The translations under genes were made by a program, and so were the position numbers. From contig JAQVHL010000015.1 of the NCBI GenBank assembly GCA_028696185.1, forward strand, positions 1 through 49,964: a stretch of 49,964 nt of DNA, given 5' to 3'. The notes below the pieces were generated by a model, which saw only the letters and a program-made list of their open reading frames with translations, searched no databases and had not been told where the DNA came from. How positions within the stretch are numbered: the stretch's first letter is position 1; each line of letters starts with the position of its first letter. Of the stretch, positions 307 through 42,576 are shown one piece after another. Origin of the DNA: Halothiobacillaceae bacterium (GTDB lineage: Bacteria; Pseudomonadota; Gammaproteobacteria; Halothiobacillales; Halothiobacillaceae).

Positions 307-605
307 TGGGAAAGCCTCTTGCAATCAGAAGAATAAAATGGCACTCCCCCCGCCCAATCAAAAACCGCTTTCCCTTCCATACCAAATCCAATCATCATAT
401 CATTCATTATCATGACATCATCAACCTTTCCAGCAGACAAAAGCCCTTCAGCAACAGACAAATAATCAGCCTCCAAACAATCCATGCGACACATATCGGT
501 AATTATTATTTCCGCCCTATAATCACTTCCCTCATAAAAACCAAAAATCGAAAAAGCAATCACACCAAAAACAAATAAAAGCCAAAAAAATCGCCCATGA
601 AGCAT
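303..605 (-). CDS. small membrane-anchored protein, candidate RHS-tip immunity protein
   Basis: This is a 100-residue protein of unknown family. It has an N-terminal hydrophobic segment at residues 6-24 and then an acidic, probably periplasmic region with three cysteines. The ATG at 605 shares one base with the stop of the RHS fragment (TGATG); a GTG lies one codon earlier at 608. The gene directly follows the RHS variable tip, and genes in that position usually encode the cognate immunity protein. A membrane-anchored product would fit a toxin acting in the envelope or periplasm. There is no sequence similarity I can cite, so function rests on position alone. Confidence 0.55.
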   Translation of the reverse strand: MLHGRFFWLLFVFGVIAFSIFGFYEGSDYRAEIIITDMCRMDCLEADYLSVAEGLLSAGKVDDVMIMNDMMIGFGMEGKAVFDWAGGVPFYSSDCKRLSQ

Positions 606-1633
606 CACACACCACCCCTTAAATATTCACAAGAAACCTTATTACAAGATGGATCCGCAACCTTTCCAGGGCAATGCGTTTGATAGTATTTATTGCACTC
701 AATACACAGAATTTTTCGGCGCAGATTGACCATTAAATTACACGCATTACCAGTCTTCTCAGCCCTCTGCCAACAAGCACTTTCGTCCTCGCACTTATCT
801 GGCATAGCAGGAAACCCACCATTCTTACACTTTATGGTCATATCCATACTCGCAGCCAACCCCAACGGATCAATCACATTAACTGGATTACCACCAACAT
901 ACGCATACGTATTAACCCCCCCATCAAGCCCAATCGGGTCCGATTCAATATACCGCCCCAGAGTCGGATCATAGTCCCGAAAGTAGTTGTAGTGCCTTCC
1001 CGTCTCGCTGTCAAAGTATTGCCCAGGAAAGCGGAGCGCGATCTCCGTGCGGGCGCCGGCCTGGATGTGGCTCTGTCCGAAGGCTTCGCTTTCGGCTTGC
1101 CAGCGGATCTGCCCTTGGCTGTCGGTGGCCAGCGTTGGGGTGCCCAGGGGGGTGGTGTGCAGGTAGTGGTACTGTACGTTGCTGCCGCTGTGTTCGGCCT
1201 GCCACAGGGGGCGGGTGCCCCAGGGGCGGTCGGCTTCCCAGCCGTAGCTGCGCTTGATTTGTCCGCTGTCGTCTATTTCCGCCAGCAGCCCTTCGGCACT
1301 GTAAAGGTACCATGTGGTGCGGGCGATGCCGCTGCGGTAGTCGCTTTTGCGGATCCGTTGCCCTAAGGCGTCGTATTGGTAGCTGGCGAGAAGTTGGCCG
1401 TTTTCTTCGATGCGGGTGAGCCGTTGGCGGGCGTCGTAGTGGTAGCGGCGCTCGTGGCCAGGACGGCTTTCGTGTTTCAGGTGTCCGCTGGCGGTGTAGC
1501 TGTAGGTGGTGCGTTCGTTGCCGTGCCCTTGGGCAAGAAGTTGGTTGCCGGGCCCGTATTCCCACGGGCCCGGTGGGTGCGCGCTGCTCTGGCGGTTGTG
1601 GACGGGGTCGTAGCTGTAGTGCTCTTCGGGCAT
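605..1633 (-). CDS. RHS/YD-repeat protein, C-terminal fragment with cysteine-rich tip
   Basis: The frame encodes YD repeats such as YQYDALGQRIRKSDY, followed by the RHS core: RFPGQYFDSETGRHYNYFRDY, then GRYIESDPIGLDGG, then NPVNVIDPLGLA at about residues 250-260. RHS proteins form a shell around a C-terminal toxin that differs between strains. Here the 82 residues after DPLGLA contain nine cysteines and match no toxin family I know. The open frame continues upstream to 1759 with more YD-repeat sequence, including EYAYDRLDRL, then meets an in-frame stop at 1760-1762 with no good start. It is therefore a 3' remnant of a much larger gene, either an orphan tip module or a pseudogene. Base composition falls in the tip. 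ATG 1633 is only the first methionine. Confidence 0.8.
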   Translation of the reverse strand: MPEEHYSYDPVHNRQSSAHPPGPWEYGPGNQLLAQGHGNERTTYSYTASGHLKHESRPGHERRYHYDARQRLTRIEENGQLLASYQYDALGQRIRKSDYRSGIARTTWYLYSAEGLLAEIDDSGQIKRSYGWEADRPWGTRPLWQAEHSGSNVQYHYLHTTPLGTPTLATDSQGQIRWQAESEAFGQSHIQAGARTEIALRFPGQYFDSETGRHYNYFRDYDPTLGRYIESDPIGLDGGVNTYAYVGGNPVNVIDPLGLAASMDMTIKCKNGGFPAMPDKCEDESACWQRAEKTGNACNLMVNLRRKILCIECNKYYQTHCPGKVADPSCNKVSCEYLRGGV

Positions 1634-1801
1634 CCCCAGGGCTTGGCGTTCGGCGCTGGGCTGGACGTGGATGAGGCGGTCAAGCCGGTCGTACGCGTAT
1701 TCGGTGTGCCCTTCCCGGTGGTCTACCCGAAGCAGGTTCAGTTCTGTTTTTTCAATTGGTTAGACGGCCGGCTTTGCCAGGAGCTTCGATGTATCTGCCG
1801 G

Positions 1802-2779
1802 TTATCCTTTTGACCGTTCTGCCTGCTCGTAGGCGTTGACGATGCGTTTGACCAGCGGGTGGCGGACGACGTCGCGCGCCTGGAAGAAGGTGAAGCTCAC
1901 GCCTTCGACGTCCTGCAGCACTTCGATGGCGTGGCGCAGGCCGGAGGTGACGCCGCGCGGCAGGTCGATCTGGGTGACGTCGCCGGTGACGACAGCGCGT
2001 GAGCCAAAGCCGATGCGGGTGAGGAACATTTTCATCTGTTCGATGGTGGTGTTCTGCGCTTCGTCGAGGATGATGAAGGCTTCGTTGAGGGTGCGCCCGC
2101 GCATGAAGGCGAGGGGGGCGACTTCGATGACGCTGCGTTCGATCAGGCGGGCGACTTTCTCGAAGCCCATCATTTCGTACAGGGCGTCGTACATGGGGCG
2201 CAGGTAGGGGTCGACTTTCTGTGCGAGGTCGCCGGGCAGAAAGCCTAGCCGTTCGCCGGCTTCGACGGCCGGACGCACGAGCACGATGCGTCGCACCTCG
2301 TCGCGGTCGAGGGCGTCCACCGCGCTGGCCACGGCAAGGTAGGTCTTGCCGGTACCGGCAGGCCCGATGCCGAAGGACAGGTCGTGGTCACGGATTTCGG
2401 CGAGGTATTTCACCTGGTTGTGTCCGCGCCCGCGGATGATGCCGCGAGCGGTGCGGATGGCCACTTCGTCGATGGGTGCGGCGGCGCTGTCCTCGGCCAG
2501 CGCCTCCAGGCCGGATTCCTGCAGGTACAGGTTGACGCGCACACCGTCCAGCACTTCGCGGGCGGTGGCGGCGTACAGCTCGCGCAGTACCGAGGCGGCG
2601 GCCTGCGCCACTGCTTCGGGGCCGATCACCTGGAAGCTGAAGCCACGGTTGTTGATCTCCACGCCGAGCCGGCGCTCGATCTGGCGCAGATGCGCTTCCA
2701 GCGGGCCGCAGAGGTTGGCGAGGCGTTCGTTGTCGCCCTCTTCGAAGCTGAAATCGACATGGGACAGCGGCGCGCTCAT
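1802..2779 (-). CDS. phoH: PhoH-like ATPase (YbeZ family)
   Basis: This 325-residue cytoplasmic PhoH-family P-loop ATPase has Walker A GPAGTGKT at 139-146, DEAQ at 239-242 and a TGDVTQ motif near 266. YbeZ proteins are linked to RNA metabolism and ribosome maturation with the endonuclease YbeY. The ATG overlaps the miaB stop as ATGA, so the two genes are cotranscribed and probably coupled. In many proteobacteria the order is miaB-ybeZ-ybeY-ybeX. Here the next sequence is the RHS remnant, only about 40 bp beyond the stop, so ybeY is absent from its usual place. Length and motifs are normal for the family. Confidence 0.95.
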
Positions 2780-4194
2780 GCGCTCACCTCACCTGCGATG
2801 AGCCCGCGCGCGGCGGCGCGCTCACGATCGATGGCGGCAATGCCGACGAATTCGCCACGCAGGGAGTTGGGCAGCACGTCGGTAACGCGCACGTTGACGA
2901 ACAGGCCGGTTAGTTCCGGACGGGCGACGAAGTTGACGGTGCGGTTGTTTTCGGTGCGTCCGGCCATCTCGCGCGGGTCTTTCTTCGATGCCCCTTCGAC
3001 CAGAATGGTCTGCACGCTGCCACGCATGGCTTCGCTGATGGCGCGCGCCTGGGTGTTGATCAGTGCCTGCAGGGCCTGCAGGCGCTCTTTTTTGAGCGCT
3101 TCGGGGGTGCTGTCTTCCAGGTTGGCCGCCGGGGTGCCGGGGCGCGCGCTGTAGATGAAGCTGAAGGACTGGTCGAAGCCGATGTCGCGGATGAGCTTCA
3201 TCGTCGCTTCGAAGTCGGCATCGCTCTCGCCGGGGAATCCGACGATGAAATCCGAGGAGATGCTGATGTCCGGGCGGGCCTCGCGCAGGCGGCGGATTTT
3301 GGATTTGTATTCGATTGCGGTGTGACCGCGCTTCATGGCGGCAAGAATGCGGTCGGCGCCGGACTGTACCGGCAGGTGCAGGAAGCTGACCAGTTGCGGA
3401 ACTTCGCGGTAGGCTTCGATCAGGCTGTCGCTGAATTCAACCGGGTGCGAGGTGGTGAAGCGGATGCGGTCGATGCCTTCGATGGCGGCAACGAAGTGGA
3501 TGAGCAGCGCCAGATCCGCCACCTGTCCGTCGTGCATAGCGCCGCGATAGGCGTTGACGTTCTGCCCCAGGAGGTTCACTTCGCGCACACCCTGCGCCGC
3601 AAGCTGGGCAACTTCGGCGATCACGTCGTCGAAGGGGCGTGAGACTTCCTCGCCACGGGTGTAGGGCACGACGCAGAAGGTGCAGTACTTGGAGCAGCCT
3701 TCCATGATGGAGACGAACGCGGTCGGCCCTTCGGCACGCGGCTCGGGCAGGCAGTCGAATTTCTCGATTTCCGGGAAGGAGATGTCCACCACCGGGGTGC
3801 GCGCCTGGCGTACCGTGCGCACCATCTGCGGCAGACGGTGCAGGGTTTGCGGGCCGAACACCATGTCCACATACGGCGCGCGGGTGCGCAGGGCCTCGCC
3901 TTCCTGACTCGCGACACAGCCGCCCACGCCGATGACGAGATTGGGGTTCTTCGCCTTGAGCGTCTTCCACTGCCCGAGCTGGGAGAAGACCTTTTCCTGC
4001 GCCTTTTCGCGGATGGAGCAGGTGTTGAGCAGGATGACATCGGCATCCTCGGGCGAATCGGTCAGGTGCATGCCCTCGCTCACACCGAGCACATCGGCCA
4101 TCTTGGAGGAGTCGTATTCGTTCATCTGACAGCCCCAGGTCTTGATGTAGAGCTTCAGGGGGCGGGCGGAGGTGTCTTCGGAAGGGCGATTCAT
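2776..4194 (-). CDS. miaB: tRNA-2-methylthio-N6-isopentenyladenosine-37 methylthiotransferase MiaB
   Basis: MiaB is a radical-SAM enzyme that adds a methylthio group to N6-isopentenyladenosine at tRNA position 37. The 472-residue length is close to E. coli MiaB. The N-terminal UPF0004 domain carries the three cluster cysteines C22 (KTWGCQMN), C59 (NTCSIREKA) and C93 (GGCVASQ). The radical-SAM motif [10 protein letters not shown] gives C167, C171 and C174. A C-terminal TRAM domain follows. I chose ATG 4194 (MNRPSED) because the family begins close to the [10 protein letters not shown] block; the frame stays open upstream to 4323 but that part is unconserved and runs into the inverted-repeat element. 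It overlaps phoH by four bases. Confidence 0.96.
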
Positions 4195-7243: not shown

Positions 7244-7442
7244 TTGCCCAGAAAACGCCACACCGGGGGTTTTCCGTACGGATTCGCGGCTAACGCCCGC
7301 GCCTACAGGGCTATTCCTGGGCGAAACGGCCTACCGCTGCAATCCTGCTTTTTGCAGGAGGGGCGTTAGGGCGTTTACAAAGCGAAGGTTTTTTGGACGA
7401 GAGTGGGCGAAAGAAACCCCCTTGGGACCGCCTGAACCGCCT

Positions 7443-7888
7443 GCTTGCGTTGGCGCCTGTTTGAAGAGGCAACCCTCAAGGCAGGCGAAAAAGGGCTTCA
7501 ACGGTTATTGAAAGCGGCTTTAACCGGCTGTTGAACGACTTGATCTTTGGCAAGCGGACAGGCTGAAAAATCAAGGATGTGTTTTTTTTAGAAACCGCTC
7601 AGGACAGGCTTGCGCACTGTTTCGCCCGCCTCAAGCGGCGCACTTCGAACGACTTGAATCGCGCGCGGGCGAGCCCTGGCCGGGGCCGCTCCGACCGGGC
7701 CGTCCCGAATTCGAGCGCCGTACCCATCAGGGCTTGGGGCATGGATGCCCCAAGGGTGCGAGAACAGGATGCACAACATCCTGTTGTGGCGGGACTGAAA
7801 GGACCCTCCATGGCCCTTTCACCCGGTCTCCGCAACCCCGTCCATGGCGCCTCCAAGGGGGAGCTGGGAATCCTTCGTCCGGCGCTGA
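7443..7888 (+). repeat. dispersed hairpin repeat, copy R1
   Basis: Starts at gcttgcgttggcgcctgttt and aligns almost throughout with the copy at 8121-8496. Compared with that copy it has an extra segment of about 47 bp near 7561-7608. It contains the block gggactgaaaggaccctccatggccctttcaccc, a palindromic gaaagg/cctttc hairpin, and ends near ggcgcctccaaggggg. The final part (to 7888) matches the inverted copy at 27.1 kb. Confidence 0.7.
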
Positions 7889-7918
7889 ATTGTTGGACAA
7901 GCGTGGGTGTAGGAAGGG

Positions 7919-8050
7919 CCCCCTTGGGACCGCCGTGGACTGACCTGTGGAAGCCGGGTAAATGGGCCAGGGAGGGCCCATTTAGTCCCAGCGCGACAGG
8001 ACGTCGCGTTGGGACGGCCCGGCTGGAGCAGGTCAGGCCAGGGCTTGCCC
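7919..8050 (-). repeat. dispersed hairpin repeat, diverged inverted copy R3
   Basis: Read on the minus strand it follows the order of R1: gggcaagccctggcc, then ccgggccgtccc, the gcgggact-like block, aaatgggccctccctggcccattt in place of the R1 hairpin, and acccgg leading to cccaaggggg. The compensating changes in the hairpin (aaatgggcc/ggcccattt instead of gaaagg/cctttc) suggest that the stem is conserved. Confidence 0.5.
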
Positions 8051-8082
8051 GAAGGGCGGTCCCGTGGGGGTGTGTTCTTTGG

Positions 8083-8114
8083 GTTACTTTTCTTGCACAA
8101 GCAAGAAAAGTGAC
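8083..8114. repeat. 32-bp palindrome (gttacttttcttgc/gcaagaaaagtgac)
   Basis: Two 14-bp arms pair at 13 of 14 positions around a 4-base spacer (acaa). It lies between repeat copies R3 and R2 in non-coding DNA. It could be a protein-binding site, a strong hairpin or part of the repeat family. Confidence 0.6.
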
Positions 8115-8120
8115 TCGCCC

Positions 8121-8496
8121 GCTTGCGTTGGCGCCTGTTTGAAGGGCTTAGCCTCATGGCGGGCGAAAAAGGGCTCCAACGGTTCTTGAAAGCGGCTTTG
8201 ATCGGCGGCTGAACGACTTGATCTTTAGCAAGCGGACAGGCCTGCGCACTGTTTCGCCCGCCTCAAGCAACGCACTTCGAACGGCTTGAATCGCGCGCGG
8301 GCAAGCCATGGCCGGGGCCGCTCCAACCGGGCCGCCCCGAATTCGAGCGCCTCACCCGTCAGGGCTTGGGACAGGGATGCCCCAAGGGTGCGAGAACAGG
8401 ACGCGCGACATCCTGTCGCGGCGGGACTGAAAGGGCCCTCCATGGCCCGTTCACCCGGTCTCCACAACCCCGGCCTTGGCGCCCCCAAGGGGGGAG
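8121..8496 (+). repeat. dispersed hairpin repeat, copy R2
   Basis: Direct copy of R1 beginning at the same gcttgcgttggcgcctgttt sequence. Shared blocks include gaacgacttgatcttt, gcgcactgtttcgcccgcc, gccccaagggtgcgagaaca and the gggactgaaagggccctcc hairpin. It ends near gcccccaagg. A following stretch, tttttgtaaacaccct, is also found beside the copy at 27.1 kb. Confidence 0.7.
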
Positions 8497-17498: not shown

Positions 17499-17761
17499 AC
17501 ACCGTGCTCGTCATCGCCGTCGCACTGGTCAGCCTCGCCCTACTGCTGACCCTCTGGCGCCTGTTCCGTGGCCCCAGCCTGCCCGACCGCATCCTGGCGC
17601 TCGACACCCTGTATGTGAACGCCATCGCCCTGCTGGTCCTGTTCGGCCTGCTGCAAAAGCAAAGCGTGTACTTCGAAGCCGCCCTGCTCATCGCCATGCT
17701 GGGCTTCGTCGGCACCGTGGCCCTGGCGAAATACCTGACCCGAGGAGACATCATCGAATGA
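17492..17761 (+). CDS. mrpF: Mrp antiporter subunit F
   Basis: 89 residues, three transmembrane helices. Typical MrpF sequence: RLFRGPSLPDRILALDTLYV followed by an AALLIAMLGFVGTVALAKYL helix. It overlaps mrpE upstream and mrpG downstream (ATGA). Confidence 0.94.
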   Translation: MLNTVLVIAVALVSLALLLTLWRLFRGPSLPDRILALDTLYVNAIALLVLFGLLQKQSVYFEAALLIAMLGFVGTVALAKYLTRGDIIE

Positions 17762-18090
17762 ATCCGGCCACCGAGCTTCTCTTGAGCGCACTGATCCTGC
17801 TTGGGGCGGTCTTCACCCTCATCGGCAGCATCGGCCTTGCGCGCCTGCGCGATTTCTACACCCGGCTGCACGGCCCGACCAAGGCCAGCACCCTGGGCGT
17901 TGGCAGCCTGCTGATCGCCTCCGCGCTGTATTTCAGCTTGACCGAACCGGGCATCAGCCTGCATGAAGTACTGGTAACCCTGTTCCTGTTCATCACTGCC
18001 CCCGTCAGCGCCCATCTGCTGGCCAAAGCCGCCCTGCACCTGAAGCTGCACAGCCTGGCCCGCCGACCAGAGCAAAATAACGAAGACTGA
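17758..18090 (+). CDS. mrpG: Mrp antiporter subunit G
   Basis: 110 residues with three transmembrane helices and the conserved block IGLARLRDFYTRLHGPTKAS. ATG 17758 overlaps the mrpF stop as ATGA. It ends the operon. No clear T-tailed terminator follows; a weak ccgtgc/gcacgg hairpin lies near 18112-18134. Confidence 0.94.
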   Translation: MNPATELLLSALILLGAVFTLIGSIGLARLRDFYTRLHGPTKASTLGVGSLLIASALYFSLTEPGISLHEVLVTLFLFITAPVSAHLLAKAALHLKLHSLARRPEQNNED

Positions 18091-18272
18091 TTACACTCGC
18101 CCAGACAAATCCGTGCCGAATCCCTTGCACGGACATGACCCACACCGGGTAGAGCTCTTTTTATACCGAATAAGATGTAATTAGAATGGCTTGATTTCCC
18201 TTCCGGGTGGAGCGTTTCGTGGGCTATCACAGACCATGCGAGATGCTCGAATGTTTTCTATCGGAGGGGGAA

Positions 18273-18341
18273 GGTAACGTTAACCCGCAAGCAAAAGGGG
18301 CGCGAAGCGCCGCTTTTGCGAGCCGGTGTTGAACGCGTTAT
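18273..18341 (-). repeat. attC-like imperfect palindrome after the 102-aa ORF
   Basis: On the minus strand the sequence starts at the stop codon of the upstream ORF (gaataacgcgttcaacaccgg) and ends ggttaacgttacc. The two arms pair as TAACG, TTNAAC, CCG and GCAAAAG with unpaired bases between them, around a ggcgcttcgcgcc hairpin tip. A stop codon embedded in the first arm, bulges in the stem and a terminal GTTA are all usual for integron attC sites. The core does not fit the GTTRRRY consensus exactly, so this is a degenerate or diverged candidate. Confidence 0.5.
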
Positions 18342-18646
18342 TCTGCCTGATTTGCCAAATTTCTTGCCGCCATTATTATTTCTTGTTCACACTGGAGGAT
18401 AAGGCTCTCATTTCCATTTCCACCTTGCTCGACGTTCCATTTGATGTCCTCGATTGCACTCGCATTGGACTTGAATGGCCAAAGATCATCAGGGCATCTT
18501 GAGCCCAATTTATCTATGACCTCTTTCCAAATTTTCATCCCACCTTCGTATTCAGATAGCTCTCCGGACACGATTTTTTTGGCAGTGGCTTTTGCCAGCG
18601 CATAGGCGTCATCTCTGTTGATTTCTTCCATGTCTTTATCAGCCAT
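18338..18646 (-). CDS. unknown 102-aa protein, possible integron gene cassette
   Basis: I do not recognise this soluble, acidic protein (MADKDMEEINRDDAYALAKA at the start). It contains three cysteines or fewer and no signal peptide, and seems mainly helical. The start ATG 18646 lies inside the end of an attC-like sequence (acgttATGg), and the TAA stop forms the beginning of another attC-like palindrome. This ORF between two recombination sites, with little spacing, is the normal form of an integron gene cassette. Base composition is lower in GC than the mrp genes. No integrase is visible in the window. Function unknown. Confidence 0.6.
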   Translation of the reverse strand: MADKDMEEINRDDAYALAKATAKKIVSGELSEYEGGMKIWKEVIDKLGSRCPDDLWPFKSNASAIEDIKWNVEQGGNGNESLILQCEQEIIMAARNLANQAE

Positions 18647-18712
18647 AACGTAGAAGTGAGCAACCTGCGTGAGTTTTCGCGCAGGTCCAGTGGAATGATG
18701 GGTTGGGACACT
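18644..18712 (-). repeat. attC-like site upstream of the 102-aa ORF
   Basis: On the minus strand: tcccaacccatcattccact at the left, the pairing arms acctgcg/cgcaggt around gcgaaaactca, then ttctacgttatgg at the right. The left part cccaacccatcattc and the right part ctacgtta closely resemble known chromosomal integron attC sites; the final core GTTATGG departs from GTTRRRY. It probably ended an earlier cassette now lost to the adjoining IS remnant. Confidence 0.55.
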
Positions 18713-18767
18713 TCTCGGCATGGAAATTTAGAGTCATGGCACAGAAGGTTTCTGGTATACCCCCAGT

Positions 18768-18929
18768 GGCTTCGTCGTTCAGGCCAAGCGCTGGGTGGTC
18801 GAGCGCACACACGCATGGAACGAGAGCGCGCGTCGTCTCATCGCCCATCACGATCTCTCCTCGTGAGTTCCAGTCGCTTGGGTCTGGCTGGTCGAAGCGC
18901 GTATCCTTGCAACCCGACTGGCAGGATAA
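18768..18929 (+). pseudogene. IS5-family transposase C-terminal remnant (frameshifted)
   Basis: One frame reads GFVVQAKRWVVERTHAWNE then SARRLIAHHDLSS and stops; another continues as VPVAWVWLVEARILATRLAG and stops. Joined by a frameshift near 18863, these give the typical last 50 residues of an IS5-group DDE transposase (RRWVVERTxAW...). The rest of the element is absent. It borders the attC-like site. Confidence 0.65.
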
Positions 18930-18958
18930 TTATTTCGGCCACACCCTCTGAAAACCCA

Positions 18959-20272
18959 TCAATTATTCCTGAACCCCGTACGCGCATTGGCATAAAAATC
19001 AAACGATTTTGTGAATGACTGGAACCAGCCATTTGCCTGAACATTCGCCACCACCTGAATTTCCGGCTCCGGCGCAGATGCCGAAGCACGATTCACGGCT
19101 GAAGTGATGGCGGCACCAGCATTCAAGTTCCAGGTAAAACCTGCGAATGCGTTTTCAACCTTGAAAGCAACGCTGGGCATCCAGTATCCAGGTACGGACG
19201 GATGGGTCGCTTTATACGCGCCATCCAGCTTGAATTGGGCATCATACAAAGTCATGCCAAACAGGTTTTTTCCTGTATAAGAGACGACCGGCGATTCACC
19301 ACGCACGGCATATTCGTAATTTTCATAGGATCCATCCTTTACGGACAGAATCGTTGTATAAGCCCCTTCCGCCGTGGTTTTCGGTCGCCCATCCTTGATG
19401 ATTTCCCAAGCGAACTTGGCGACTTTCAAACCCAGCTTCGCCGCTTCCACACCAACCTCCGCCGCGCCGCCCTTGGATCCCACATCGGATGAAATATAGG
19501 CGAACTCTCCCTGCATCGCGGACGTCTTGCCGAAAAATTTCGCCAAAAAATCCGGAAACCTCATCCCTGACTGCCTGTATTGCTCATCGAGGTCGAATAC
19601 ACTCATACCTCTTCGCTGAAGCTCGGCATACAAACTAGAAAACCCCTCGCCAAGCCGTTCCAGAACACTCCCAAAATAAGCGATTGTCAAATCGTTCATC
19701 ATCATGAAATCCCTCAAATCGGACTCCATGTCCGAATAGGATTTAATCGAATTACTATAATGAGCATCAACGGTTTCATAGAACGCGACATAACTCTTAA
19801 CATCCGGCAAACCTGAAGCCATATACTCCTTATAAAGACCCTCAGGACTCTCATCAAGATCCGCGAACTCCCACGCCAGCTCATGTATCGAATGGCTGGG
19901 ATAGTGATTTCCCAATTCGTAGATAAGCTCTTCTACAAATCCTATCACTGCAGCATGATCAACCTCATCCACCGCCCCTCTGATTGAAACCATATGCGCC
20001 GACTGCATCACCAAAGGAAGTTGTTTGTTTTCCCTTGATTCAAGAATGGCAATTTGCGGCGCTCCCGCTGCAACCAGCGATGGATCATCCACAAGTCTCC
20101 TGCTGTCAGTCAGTGCGTAATATTTGTATGTTTCCTTTTGCACCTCCCGACCGTCTACCGCCACGGTGGTGAAAATCTTGTCTCCCGCCTTGGGTTGATA
20201 GACCGAATCCTCGGAACCGCAACCGGCAAGCGCAACAAGCATGAACGAATTTACGGCAACCCACTTTTTCAC
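18959..20272 (-). CDS. putative outer-membrane or surface lipoprotein of unknown function
   Basis: The 437-residue product has a lipoprotein signal peptide, VKKWVAVNSFMLVALAGC, with the lipobox LAGC at C18. I chose GTG 20272 because AAGGAG lies just before it; the longer frame upstream (ATG 20302 and beyond) adds a charged stretch that would spoil the signal. The mature part has no motif I recognise. It contains a helical region with many Met/Asp residues (about 150-270), a G/A-rich segment and a C-terminal, probably beta-rich part (SYENYEYAVRGESPVVSYTG). Base composition in the middle is more AT-rich than in neighbouring housekeeping genes, suggesting acquisition. Its neighbours are an IS remnant and a cassette-like ORF. 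Confidence 0.65.
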   Translation of the reverse strand: MKKWVAVNSFMLVALAGCGSEDSVYQPKAGDKIFTTVAVDGREVQKETYKYYALTDSRRLVDDPSLVAAGAPQIAILESRENKQLPLVMQSAHMVSIRGAVDEVDHAAVIGFVEELIYELGNHYPSHSIHELAWEFADLDESPEGLYKEYMASGLPDVKSYVAFYETVDAHYSNSIKSYSDMESDLRDFMMMNDLTIAYFGSVLERLGEGFSSLYAELQRRGMSVFDLDEQYRQSGMRFPDFLAKFFGKTSAMQGEFAYISSDVGSKGGAAEVGVEAAKLGLKVAKFAWEIIKDGRPKTTAEGAYTTILSVKDGSYENYEYAVRGESPVVSYTGKNLFGMTLYDAQFKLDGAYKATHPSVPGYWMPSVAFKVENAFAGFTWNLNAGAAITSAVNRASASAPEPEIQVVANVQANGWFQSFTKSFDFYANARTGFRNN

Positions 20273-20435
20273 AACTTTCTCCTTTATATCAAAGGCTTGC
20301 ATGAATAAAGCCCCGACCAACCCATGAGAGCACTCTAGCACACGCTCCGTAAACCCATCGTAAACACACCGTAAAAACAGCAAGATACATATTCACAGCA
20401 TGGATTCCGGCCTCTGCCCCCCATCACACCGGTGC

Positions 20436-26719: not shown

Positions 26720-27173
26720 GGGACGGTTCCGTTTTTCCACAGAGCCTGTGGATAACTTTGTGGATGACTCTTGGAAGAGCGATGCGAAGGCTTGTCGGAT
26801 CAGGGCTTTTGACAGATTGGCTACAAAATAATCAACACAACAAACACTTAAAAATCAATCATTTAAAAAAACAACCCCAGAAAACCGCATCCTGACGCGC
26901 CTCTCCTCCTGTCAAGTCCTTCCTGTGCAAAAAGTTGCTTGACAGGCACCTGCCCAGGGCTTCGCAAACCGGAAAATGAACACCCCCGGCGCCGCTTGTT
27001 CCGAAGGGTTTTTAACACCCTGTAAGAGGGTGTTTACAAAAAAAATGCTGCGAACAATATCAGCGTCGGACGAAGAATTCCCAGCCCCCCTTGGAGGCGC
27101 CATGGACGGGGTTGTGAAGATCGGGCGAAAGGGCCATGAATGGCCCTTTCAGTCACAGCCTGCGGGGAACGGG
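26720..27173. other. intergenic region with AT-rich stretch and a repeat copy
   Basis: No gene seen. The first 200 bp upstream of hrpB are AT-rich (26821-26890) and probably carry its promoter. At 27009-27036 lies a hairpin aacaccct/agggtgtt, and at 27061-27155 an inverted copy of the 7-8 kb repeat family. Confidence 0.6.
27061..27155 (-). repeat. dispersed hairpin repeat, copy R4
   Basis: Read on the minus strand this matches the end of R1 (about 7790-7888) in the same order: gactgaaaggg, a catggccctttc hairpin, cccg, acaaccccgtccatggcgcc, tccaagggggg, ctgggaat and cttcgtccg. The hairpin is here the perfect pair gaaagggccat/atggccctttc. It lies directly behind gloA and might serve as its transcript end. 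Confidence 0.65.
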
Positions 27174-31764: not shown

Positions 31765-32180
31765 GACGGCTCCACGAAGTTTCAGTTCAAACACGCCCGA
31801 TCAAGACCCGGACGCAACAAAATGGCGACGATTATAGCGCCGTTTGCCGCCCAGGCGCACGCCCGGACACAGCGGCCGTATCGCCCCTGTAACGCGAGCA
31901 ACGGCCTCGGCAGGCCTTGAGAAGCCCTCCCCCTGGCGGGCAAATCATCCCGGATGATTCATTGGCCCGGCCTGCATCCCTTGCGCCGGGAAGATGGGCT
32001 CGTCGCCCGGCCCAACCGATTTGTCGGGCCCCCGACGACCATACCCCGAAGGGACTTCCGGCATGAATGCCCTGAATAAAAAAGGTTTTTCGCGCGAACT
32101 GGGGAAAGTAGAGGTTGACGGGTCGGAAGTTGGTGGATTGGCAGTCACCAAACAAACCGATCCCCTTCCTCTTCCCCGTC
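31765..32180. other. intergenic region upstream of argG and the ISL3 remnant
   Basis: No gene is supported here. The sequence near 32085-32110 (tttttcgcgcgaactgggga) looks like the left terminal region of an ISL3-type element preceding the transposase start, but the matching right end is missing. Confidence 0.4.
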
Positions 32181-39915: not shown

Positions 39916-42576
39916 ATGACCCAGCAGTTTGTAGACAACGATCCGCAAGAAACCCGGGAATGGCTCGACGCGCTGGAAGCGGTGGTCGAGTTTGAAGGCA
40001 CCGAAAAGGCCCGTCACCTGATCGCCGCACTGATCGAGACGGCACGCAAGCACGGGATCGACACGCCCTACAGCGCCAACACCCCTTATATCAACACCAT
40101 CGCCCCCGAAGACGAGCCGCCCTACCCCGGCGACCGCCAGATGGAGCAGCGCCTGCGCGCGCTGGTGCGCTGGAACGCGATGGCGATGGTGGTGCGCGCC
40201 AACATGCACAGCAAGGTCGGCGGGCACATTGCCTCCTTCCAGTCCAGCGCCACCCTGTATGAAGTCGGTTTCAACCACTTCTTCAAGGGCCCGGACCATC
40301 CGAACGGGCCGGACATGGTGTTCTTCCAGGGCCATATCTCGCCGGGCATCTACGCCCGCGCCTTCCTCGAAGGCCGCCTGAGCGAGGAAGACCTCATCAA
40401 TTTCCGCCAGGAAGCGGAAAAGGGCGGTCTGTCCTCCTATCCGCATCCGTGGCTGATGCCGGATTTCTGGCAGTTCCCGACGGTTTCGATGGGGCTCGGG
40501 CCGTTGATGGCCATCTATCAGGCGCGCTTCATGAAGTACATGAACGCGCGCGGCCTGGCGCAGGCGGCCGACCGCAAGGTCTGGGCCTTCCTGGGCGATG
40601 GGGAGATGGACGAGCCGGAAGCGATGGGCGCGATTGGACTGGCCGCACGCGAGAAGCTCGACAACCTGATCTTCGTGGTCAACTGCAACCTGCAGCGTCT
40701 GGACGGCCCGGTGCGCGGCAACGGCAAGATCATCCAGGAGCTGGAAGGCACCTTCCGCGGCGCGGGCTGGAACGTCATCAAGCTGATCTGGGGGCCGGGC
40801 TGGGACGCGCTGATGGAAAAAGACAAGTCCGGCATGCTCATCAAGCGCATGATGGAAGTGGTCGACGGCGAATACCAGGCGTACAAGGTCAAGGGCGGCG
40901 CTTATGTGCGCGAGCACTTCTTCGGCAAGTACCCGGAAACGGCGGAACTCGTGCGCAACATGACCGACGACGAGATCTTCGCCCTCACCCGTGGCGGCCA
41001 CGCGCCGACCAAGATCTACGCCGCCTACAAGACCGCCTCCGGGCACGCCAATCAGCCGACGGTGATCCTCGCCAAGACCATCAAGGGCTACGGCATGGGC
41101 CCCTACGGCGAGGGCGCGATGAGTGCGCACCAGCAGAAAAAGCTCGATCAGAACGGCCTGCGTTACTTCCGCGACCGCTTCCGCCTGCCGATCTCCGACG
41201 AGCAGTTGGAAAACGACGTGCCCTTCTACCGTCCGGACGAGAATTCCGAGCTGATCCGCTACATGCGCGATCGCCGCGCCGCCCTGGGCGGCTCCCTGCC
41301 CGCGCGCATCGACCGTAGCGAGGTGTTGCCGGTGCCCGAGCTGGCCGCGTTCGAATCGGTCCTGAAGGGCACGGACGATCGCGAGATGTCCACCACCATG
41401 GTGTTCGGCCGCCTGCTTGCCGTACTGTTGCGCGACAAGGCACTGGGCAAGCGCGTGGTGCCGATCATTCCCGACGAGGCACGCACCTTCGGTCTGGAAG
41501 GACTGTTCCGCCAGGTCGGCATCTACGATCCGGCCGGCCAGCTCTACGAGCCGGTCGATGCCGATCAGGTCTCCTGGTACAAGCAGGCGCACAACGGCCA
41601 GGTGCTGCAGGAAGGCATCAACGAAGCCGGCGCCATGTCCTCCTGGATTGCGGCGGCTACCGCCTACGCCAACCACGGCGTGGCGATGATCCCGTTTTAC
41701 ATCTATTACTCGATGTTCGGCTACCAGCGCATCGGCGATCTGGTCTGGGCCTCCGGCGACATCCGCGCGCGCGGCTTCATCTTCGGCGCCACCGCCGGGC
41801 GCACCACGCTCGAAGGCGAGGGCCTGCAGCACAACGACGGCCACAACATCGTCTTCTTCAGCGCCGTGCCAAGCTGCCGCGTGTACGACCCGACCTATGC
41901 CTACGAAATGGCGGTCATCGTCCACGACGGCCTGAAGCGCATGTACACGGACAAGGAAAGCGTTTTCTACTACATCACCGCGATGAACGAGAACTACGCG
42001 CACCCGGCCCTGCCCGAAGGCGCGGAGGAAGGCATCCTCAAGGGGCTGTACCGCCTGCGCCAGAGCGACGCGGCGCACAAGGCCCGCGTGCAGCTGATGG
42101 GCTCCGGCGCCATCCTGCGCGAGGCCGAGGCCGCCGCACGGATTCTCGAAGACGAGTGGAAGGTCGCAGCGGATGTGTGGTCCGCCACCAGCTTCACGGA
42201 GCTTGCCCGCGACGGTCAGGACTGCGCGCGCCACAACCGCCTGCATCCGGACGGCCCCGCGCGCGTGCCGCATGTCACCGCCTGCCTCGCCGACAGTCAT
42301 GGTCCGGTCATCGCCGCGACCGACTATATCCACCTGTTCGCCGAGCAGATTCGTGGTTTCGTACCGCGCCGCTACGTCACCCTGGGCACCGACGGCTACG
42401 GCCGCTCCGACACCCGCGAAGCGCTGCGCCGCTTCTTCGAGGTCGACAGCCACAGCATCGTGCTTGCCGCGCTCACCGCGCTGGTCGATGAGGGCACGCT
42501 GGACGGCGCCGTACTCCGGCAGGCGATCGAACGCTACGGCATCCACCCGGACAAGCCCAATCCGGTGACTGTCTGA
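39916..42576 (+). CDS. aceE: pyruvate dehydrogenase E1 component, homodimeric type
   Basis: AceE decarboxylates pyruvate with thiamine diphosphate and passes the acetyl group to the lipoyl of AceF. The 886 residues match E. coli AceE (887). The thiamine motif is GDGE at 227-230 and NCN at 256-258. Other family sequences include HIASFQSSATLYEVGFNHFF, and DGYGRSDTREALRRFFEVD near the C terminus. It starts the operon aceE-aceF-lpd. AAGGAG lies before the ATG at slightly long spacing. Long antisense frames over this gene are shadows. Confidence 0.97.
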   Translation: MTQQFVDNDPQETREWLDALEAVVEFEGTEKARHLIAALIETARKHGIDTPYSANTPYINTIAPEDEPPYPGDRQMEQRLRALVRWNAMAMVVRANMHSKVGGHIASFQSSATLYEVGFNHFFKGPDHPNGPDMVFFQGHISPGIYARAFLEGRLSEEDLINFRQEAEKGGLSSYPHPWLMPDFWQFPTVSMGLGPLMAIYQARFMKYMNARGLAQAADRKVWAFLGDGEMDEPEAMGAIGLAAREKLDNLIFVVNCNLQRLDGPVRGNGKIIQELEGTFRGAGWNVIKLIWGPGWDALMEKDKSGMLIKRMMEVVDGEYQAYKVKGGAYVREHFFGKYPETAELVRNMTDDEIFALTRGGHAPTKIYAAYKTASGHANQPTVILAKTIKGYGMGPYGEGAMSAHQQKKLDQNGLRYFRDRFRLPISDEQLENDVPFYRPDENSELIRYMRDRRAALGGSLPARIDRSEVLPVPELAAFESVLKGTDDREMSTTMVFGRLLAVLLRDKALGKRVVPIIPDEARTFGLEGLFRQVGIYDPAGQLYEPVDADQVSWYKQAHNGQVLQEGINEAGAMSSWIAAATAYANHGVAMIPFYIYYSMFGYQRIGDLVWASGDIRARGFIFGATAGRTTLEGEGLQHNDGHNIVFFSAVPSCRVYDPTYAYEMAVIVHDGLKRMYTDKESVFYYITAMNENYAHPALPEGAEEGILKGLYRLRQSDAAHKARVQLMGSGAILREAEAAARILEDEWKVAADVWSATSFTELARDGQDCARHNRLHPDGPARVPHVTACLADSHGPVIAATDYIHLFAEQIRGFVPRRYVTLGTDGYGRSDTREALRRFFEVDSHSIVLAALTALVDEGTLDGAVLRQAIERYGIHPDKPNPVTV

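Follow-up and report, generated by a model that had tools for sequence, protein, structure and literature searches.

A probable remnant of an integron cassette, with both attC-like sites apparently decayed, in a Halothiobacillaceae genome

The stretch of DNA analysed here (the window, 49,964 nucleotides of contig C14 from a Halothiobacillaceae bacterium) carries a short open reading frame (ORF) enclosed by two attC-like sites, which raises the question of whether an integron gene cassette, in whatever state, can be recognised at this locus. In a preliminary description the ORF had been put down as a lone integron-type cassette without a visible integrase, tightly packed between its two sites and encoding a protein of no known family. 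The features on which the question turns are the following:

17758-18090, plus strand: mnhG-like gene, the convergent downstream neighbour, closing an mrp/mnh antiporter operon
18267-18346, minus strand: attC-like site B, which belongs to the cassette itself and overlaps the TAA stop codon of the ORF
18338-18646, minus strand: cassette ORF (P0001), 102 amino acids plus stop, GC 0.441, matching no known family
18643-18708, minus strand: attC-like site A, TCCCAAC...GTTATGG, its ATG being the start of the ORF; putative site of a lost preceding cassette
18761-18949, plus strand: 3' part of an IS4/5-type transposase gene, left as a remnant 52 bases upstream of site A and 96% identical to G000:C17:1034-1222
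18959-20383, minus strand: 474-residue ORF, the upstream neighbour of the cassette, GC 0.489

Both sites have the orientation of the ORF and each touches one of its ends; the ORF is followed by site B on the same strand, which is the order of an integron cassette (ORF, then attC-like site). Site A aligned with the attC at L023:4382-4448 in a relative with 49 of 60 columns identical and one gap (local score 63), and site B with the attC at L023:12650-12731 at 47 of 62 positions, ungapped (local score 49). For 3942 stretches of 70 bases elsewhere in the window, taken on both strands and compared with 47 attC of relatives, the best score was 35; a denser null, with 9854 stretches of 80 bases and 27 attC, gave 31 at best, and both nulls left out stretches that overlap 18200-18750. 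BLAST of sites A and B against 17 loci was concordant (E 1.9e-9 and 1.2e-5, respectively). The attC-like site that had been proposed at each end of the ORF is thus borne out by alignments lying above both nulls.

Covariance models were built from attC sites of family relatives, the window being part of neither. The first, R1, comprised 10 sites picked by eye; L023:9541-9618 and L021:15447-15510 (from set A1 to A2), as well as L023:10094, L023:493 and L026:711 (from A2 to A3), had been dropped beforehand because their arms were out of register in MAFFT. The second, R2, comprised 47 sites (set A5) found by R1 in eight relatives' loci, six of which yielded sites, and four of the five dropped sites (all except L023:493) re-entered by this route. 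The A5 cut-off of E 1e-4 was chosen after the R1 matches had been seen, against reverse-strand echoes (e.g. L027:818-875, minus strand), and it also excluded weaker plus-strand sites of the arrays. Many of the 47 sites stem from a single array whose 96-base repeats are almost identical, and the effective sequence number is 8.36. When scored with R1 the 47 sites lie, by selection, at 27.4-75.1 bits, further plus-strand matches in the same arrays going down to 14.8 bits; examples of R1 noise are a minus-strand match in L024 (16.4 bits) and a 34-base match in L022 (14.0 bits).

With filters off, R1 placed site A first in the window (15.8 bits, E 0.069), ahead of an unrelated match of 20 bases at 32010-32029 (13.3 bits); of site B it found the inner hairpin only (4.7 bits) and not the whole site. 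Under the same conditions R2 placed site B first (21.2 bits, E 0.0078; 16.4 bits and E 0.11 with filters) and site A third (13.2 bits, E 0.67), behind an unrelated stretch at 40135-40185 (13.7 bits). Genome-wide, the E values were 4.0 for site A with R1 and 6.4 for site B with R2, and an unrelated match on contig C22 scored close to site B with R2 (15.8 bits). Given the low scores with both models and genome-wide E values above 1, the sites are therefore weak by model. Low covariance scores had been named beforehand as a result that would speak against a cassette, and on the genome-wide scale this was nearly the outcome; Rfam returned no match at the cassette locus at its gathering cut-off. 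Plain alignment is firmer support for A and B as attC than the covariance models.

Both sites look decayed. The bottom strand of site A folds into little more than the inner hairpin (-10.8 kcal/mol, z -2.76; equalled by 3 of 200 shuffles) and that of site B into a longer stem (-21.4 kcal/mol, z -3.34; equalled by 1 of 200 shuffles), while four intact attC gave z values from -4.29 to -6.00, each equalled by none of 200 shuffles. In our reading, the distal L arm of site A has lost its pairing and the site is decayed. For site B, either the full spacing is retained and the R boxes would be mutated, as suggested by the R2 alignment, or the site may be read, as we do, as GAATAAC...GTTACCT with both R-L spacers shortened. 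An attC is defined by R''/R' boxes (AAC/GTT), paired L boxes and an inner hairpin. Site A, and site B in one reading, still has AAC and GTT in its two boxes, but L or R boxes or the spacing are damaged and the model scores lie at 13-21 bits. A search for direct and inverted repeats across 17800-19200 returned nothing. The ORF and its sites are indeed stitched together, as the notion of a tidy cassette would have it, but since both sites look decayed the locus is more relic than tidy cassette.

The ORF itself is a foreign gene whose protein has been under purifying selection in the past. Its GC content of 0.441, compared with 0.630 for the whole window, falls at percentile 1.7 among 974 window stretches, and its GC3 is 0.46 versus 0.81-0.83 in three mrp reading frames. 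The sole relative found, on the contig JAQTYP010000111.1 of a Methylomonas MAG (L012:4923-5204), has 76% amino-acid identity over 94 residues and was the single match in a scan of genome contigs that is sensitive to close relatives only. At the DNA level the match extends from codon 7 through the last codon (79.8% over 287 bases). The 94 codons compared comprise 51 that are identical, 20 with silent differences and 23 with an amino-acid change, corresponding to dN 0.14 and dS 0.90 (NG86) or 0.16 and 0.60 (YN00), that is, dN/dS of about 0.16-0.26. An in-frame ATG at 18721 would be an alternative start, giving 127 residues. Two promoter-like matches were found in 18050-19050, both on the plus strand (the ORF is on the minus strand, and cassette ORFs usually have no promoter of their own), and a DNA search of the genome revealed no second copy of the cassette.

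The Methylomonas relative sits within a run of short ORFs, all on the same strand, in which Pfam identifies one DUF7832 (6.6e-41) and, weakly, one DUF4304 (2e-4, below its cut-off). A candidate assignment of a neighbour in this run to Imm26 was not borne out by Pfam. No attC was found beside the relative within L012:4200-7700 (best 7.4 bits), and the gene therefore also occurs outside cassettes. Conservation of the ORF with the same flanks in a non-cassette context, the other outcome that the preliminary description had set against itself, is not what was seen: the only relative found shares the gene and not the flanks. A lone good attC is present at L012:61-120 (37.7 bits with R2), near the end of the Methylomonas contig and 4.8 kb from the relative of the ORF. 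In its short same-strand ORFs, with DUF7832 and a weak DUF4304, the run resembles polyimmunity loci (PMC3482391); however, no ORF of the run is assigned to an immunity family.

As to the protein, the claim that it belongs to no known family was confirmed. There was no match in NCBIfam and no meaningful one in Pfam or PADLOC, and this holds for immunity-protein and defence families in all three collections. Searches of 398 genomes of the phylum plus 57 relatives returned its own copy only, and the ORF is absent from all 26 other genomes of the family. A class-level search of 369 genomes with the two-row alignment gave its own copy and a weak match in G426 (E 0.008) that was not counted; no relatives were found in plasmids and phages or in viral contigs. 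Several candidates were set aside, namely Pfam DUF2188 (E 0.16, a short stretch), PADLOC PDC-S16 (E 0.015 over 33 residues, the best PADLOC match), a PHROG without known function (E 0.024, a short stretch) and the PDB chain 8g8i_A (C3HR3_9r_shift4; E 0.00044 over 26 residues, no stretch passing alone). Structure prediction yielded four helices at low confidence (mean pLDDT 56.9, pTM 0.41). The likeliest role, that of an orphan protein with an immunity-like or other accessory function, has been guessed from the gene's neighbourhood in Methylomonas and is as such rather doubtful. That the ORF represents a hitherto undescribed family of small, helical proteins with a role in immunity or defence, shuttling between integron cassettes and polyimmunity-like gene runs, is unlikely; if true, the spread of orphan immunity genes would in part proceed through integrons.

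The surroundings of the cassette were compared within the family and with the rest of the genome. The mnhG-like gene has a relative in 22 of the 26 other family genomes, and in the loci around these relatives (flanks up to 1.5 kb) the next genes of the window were unmatched outside its own locus, no empty site being displayed. On the other side, the transposase copy on contig C17 encodes a 389-residue product with DUF4096 (IS4/5 family) and DDE_Tnp_1, and of the gene in the window only the 3' tail was found. Directly upstream of site A there is no second cassette ORF. The 474-residue ORF gave no Pfam match, and a 455-residue part of it no NCBIfam match; its N-terminus resembles, in our reading, a lipoprotein signal. 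Farther away in the window, repeated intergenic blocks lie at 7433-8493 behind a four-tRNA cluster (260 nt at 91% and 131 nt at 87%), and between the two copies Rfam detects TwoAYGGAY at 7911-8078 (43.8 bits, cut-off 43); part of this repeat recurs inverted at 27053-27154 and also on contigs C75 and C95.

Contig C14 gave no match to the integron integrase profile (TIGR02249), so that A and B are attC-like sites without an adjoining intI, as in CALINs and SALINs. The absence of an integrase holds for this contig but not for the genome, which contains one full, two truncated and one decayed intI, and the search for an integron elsewhere that had been proposed was rewarded with the full gene on C75 and attC on C91, C95 and C44. 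The C75 intI (488 bits over 314 positions) lies 130 bases from the contig end on the expected attI side, and the decayed intI is located on C70. The last 186-204 bases of C75, comprising the 5' end of intI and the preceding DNA, recur on C91 (96%) and C44 (92%) as the truncated copies, with attC about 1.4 and 0.9 kb away, respectively. With R2, four attC at 48.8-58.5 bits were detected in the genome, two on C91 and one each on C95 and C44; the two on C91 may be one site doubled by assembly, because they are identical apart from an N gap between them. A complete integron would have intI and attI heading the array; the C75 intI and its upstream region have no match near the ORF, and stray matches in the window, at 2.5-3.0 kb and 26.1 kb, reach E 0.014 at best. 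The integrase profile also matches C63 and C57 (36-78 bits), in all probability at recombinases of the XerC/D type; in a control, 14 of 14 genomes gave matches at E <= 0.001 and none above the cut-off.

Across the 27 genomes of the family, its own included, intI was found in 8 (E <= 1e-80) and attC in at least 19 (E <= 0.01). The genome-wide attC scans scored 150 of 422-3592 candidates per genome, and the counts are consequently lower bounds. In the complete genome G399, intI at C1:2752003-2752944 adjoins a train of attC sites; there are at least 74 attC matches, with groups, among the matches listed, near 334-338 kb and 971-991 kb, a long way from intI. In the one-contig genome G402 at least 43 attC matches fall into several groups, and intI is absent at E <= 1e-80. 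Cassettes distant from an integrase are therefore routine in the family. G402 is a better example of integrase-less cassette arrays than the window.

Such arrangements have precedents. According to PMC9229058, SALINs are single orphan cassettes, of which 115 were counted across 41 Shewanella genomes. The present locus is similar in consisting of one orphan cassette far from an integrase, with integrases elsewhere in the genome, but differs in that its one ORF lies between two attC remnants, both apparently decayed. Measured against CALINs (PMC9024848 and PMC12444791), two attC-like sites without an adjoining intI would make the smallest CALIN, although the genome-wide scores of A and B are too low with our own models R1 and R2. 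PMC12444791 also describes, for Xanthomonas, CALINs away from the integron locus in about half of the genomes and widespread inactivation of intI in some species. A literature search on Halothiobacillus and integrons gave no paper with either term in its title or abstract. The integrons of the family itself (G399:C1:2752003 onwards, L021; G405:C8, L023) have the same attC subfamilies, A and B resembling two different sites of G405; in contrast to the window, their arrays are long, have good scores at most sites and are headed by intI.

The locus is, in all likelihood, a decayed remnant of an integron cassette array, worn to a single cassette of the SALIN/CALIN type. The attC homology of A and B, the foreign composition of the ORF, the past selection on it, the transposase remnant, and the intI and attC elsewhere in the genome are the observed parts of this account. 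The course of events would have been that an integron integrase took up the 102-residue gene as a circular cassette, inserting it either in an array at this locus or at a secondary site next to the mrp operon. The upstream part of the array would then have been removed or severed by a transposable element, and both attC sites would have drifted. By now the cassette has probably become fixed or almost fixed, having presumably lost the capacity to recombine, even if the one full-length IntI of the genome could in principle still act on it in trans.

This last point leads to an alternative in which the single cassette is still mobile, the C75 IntI recombining A and B in trans. An open full-length intI is present, a functional IntI can mobilise CALIN cassettes in trans according to PMC12444791, and both boxes of A (and those of B in one reading) retain AAC and GTT. 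However, the L arm of A pairs poorly, B is mutated or shortened, and the bottom strands of A and B fold less well (z -2.76 and -3.34) than those of the four intact sites (-4.29 to -6.00), and continued mobility is very unlikely. It is also improbable that A alone is a real (decayed) attC and that B is an ordinary terminator, intrinsic or two-way, separating the mrp operon from the convergent ORF. Site B does contain a G+C-rich hairpin with CCTTTTGCTT behind it, which was classed as terminator-like (1 found versus a mean of 1.1 in shuffles), and the hairpin is all that R1 detects of it; yet the 47/62 identity to a relative's attC extends outside the hairpin, and B is the best R2 match in the window. 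As an attC hairpin may double as a terminator, the two readings of B are in any case compatible.

The low covariance scores, which unrelated stretches match in both window and genome, would also fit chance look-alikes, i.e. two GC-rich hairpins flanking a spurious ORF. This explanation is exceedingly improbable: not one of the 3942 and 9854 control stretches reaches the alignment scores of A and B, and between the ORF and its relative dN is far lower than dS.

The preferred reading, that of a single decayed cassette remnant, assigns the locus to an already known kind; it is an ordinary relic, and alone alters no current belief about integrons. It does indicate that relics which a general scan would miss are picked up by aligning them with attC from within the family, and it points to an integron-rich family, with attC in at least 19 of 27 genomes. 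It would also illustrate a possible end of integron cassettes, in which a cassette is cut off from its integrase and its attC sites drift toward the edge of what covariance models can detect, the cargo gene staying in place.
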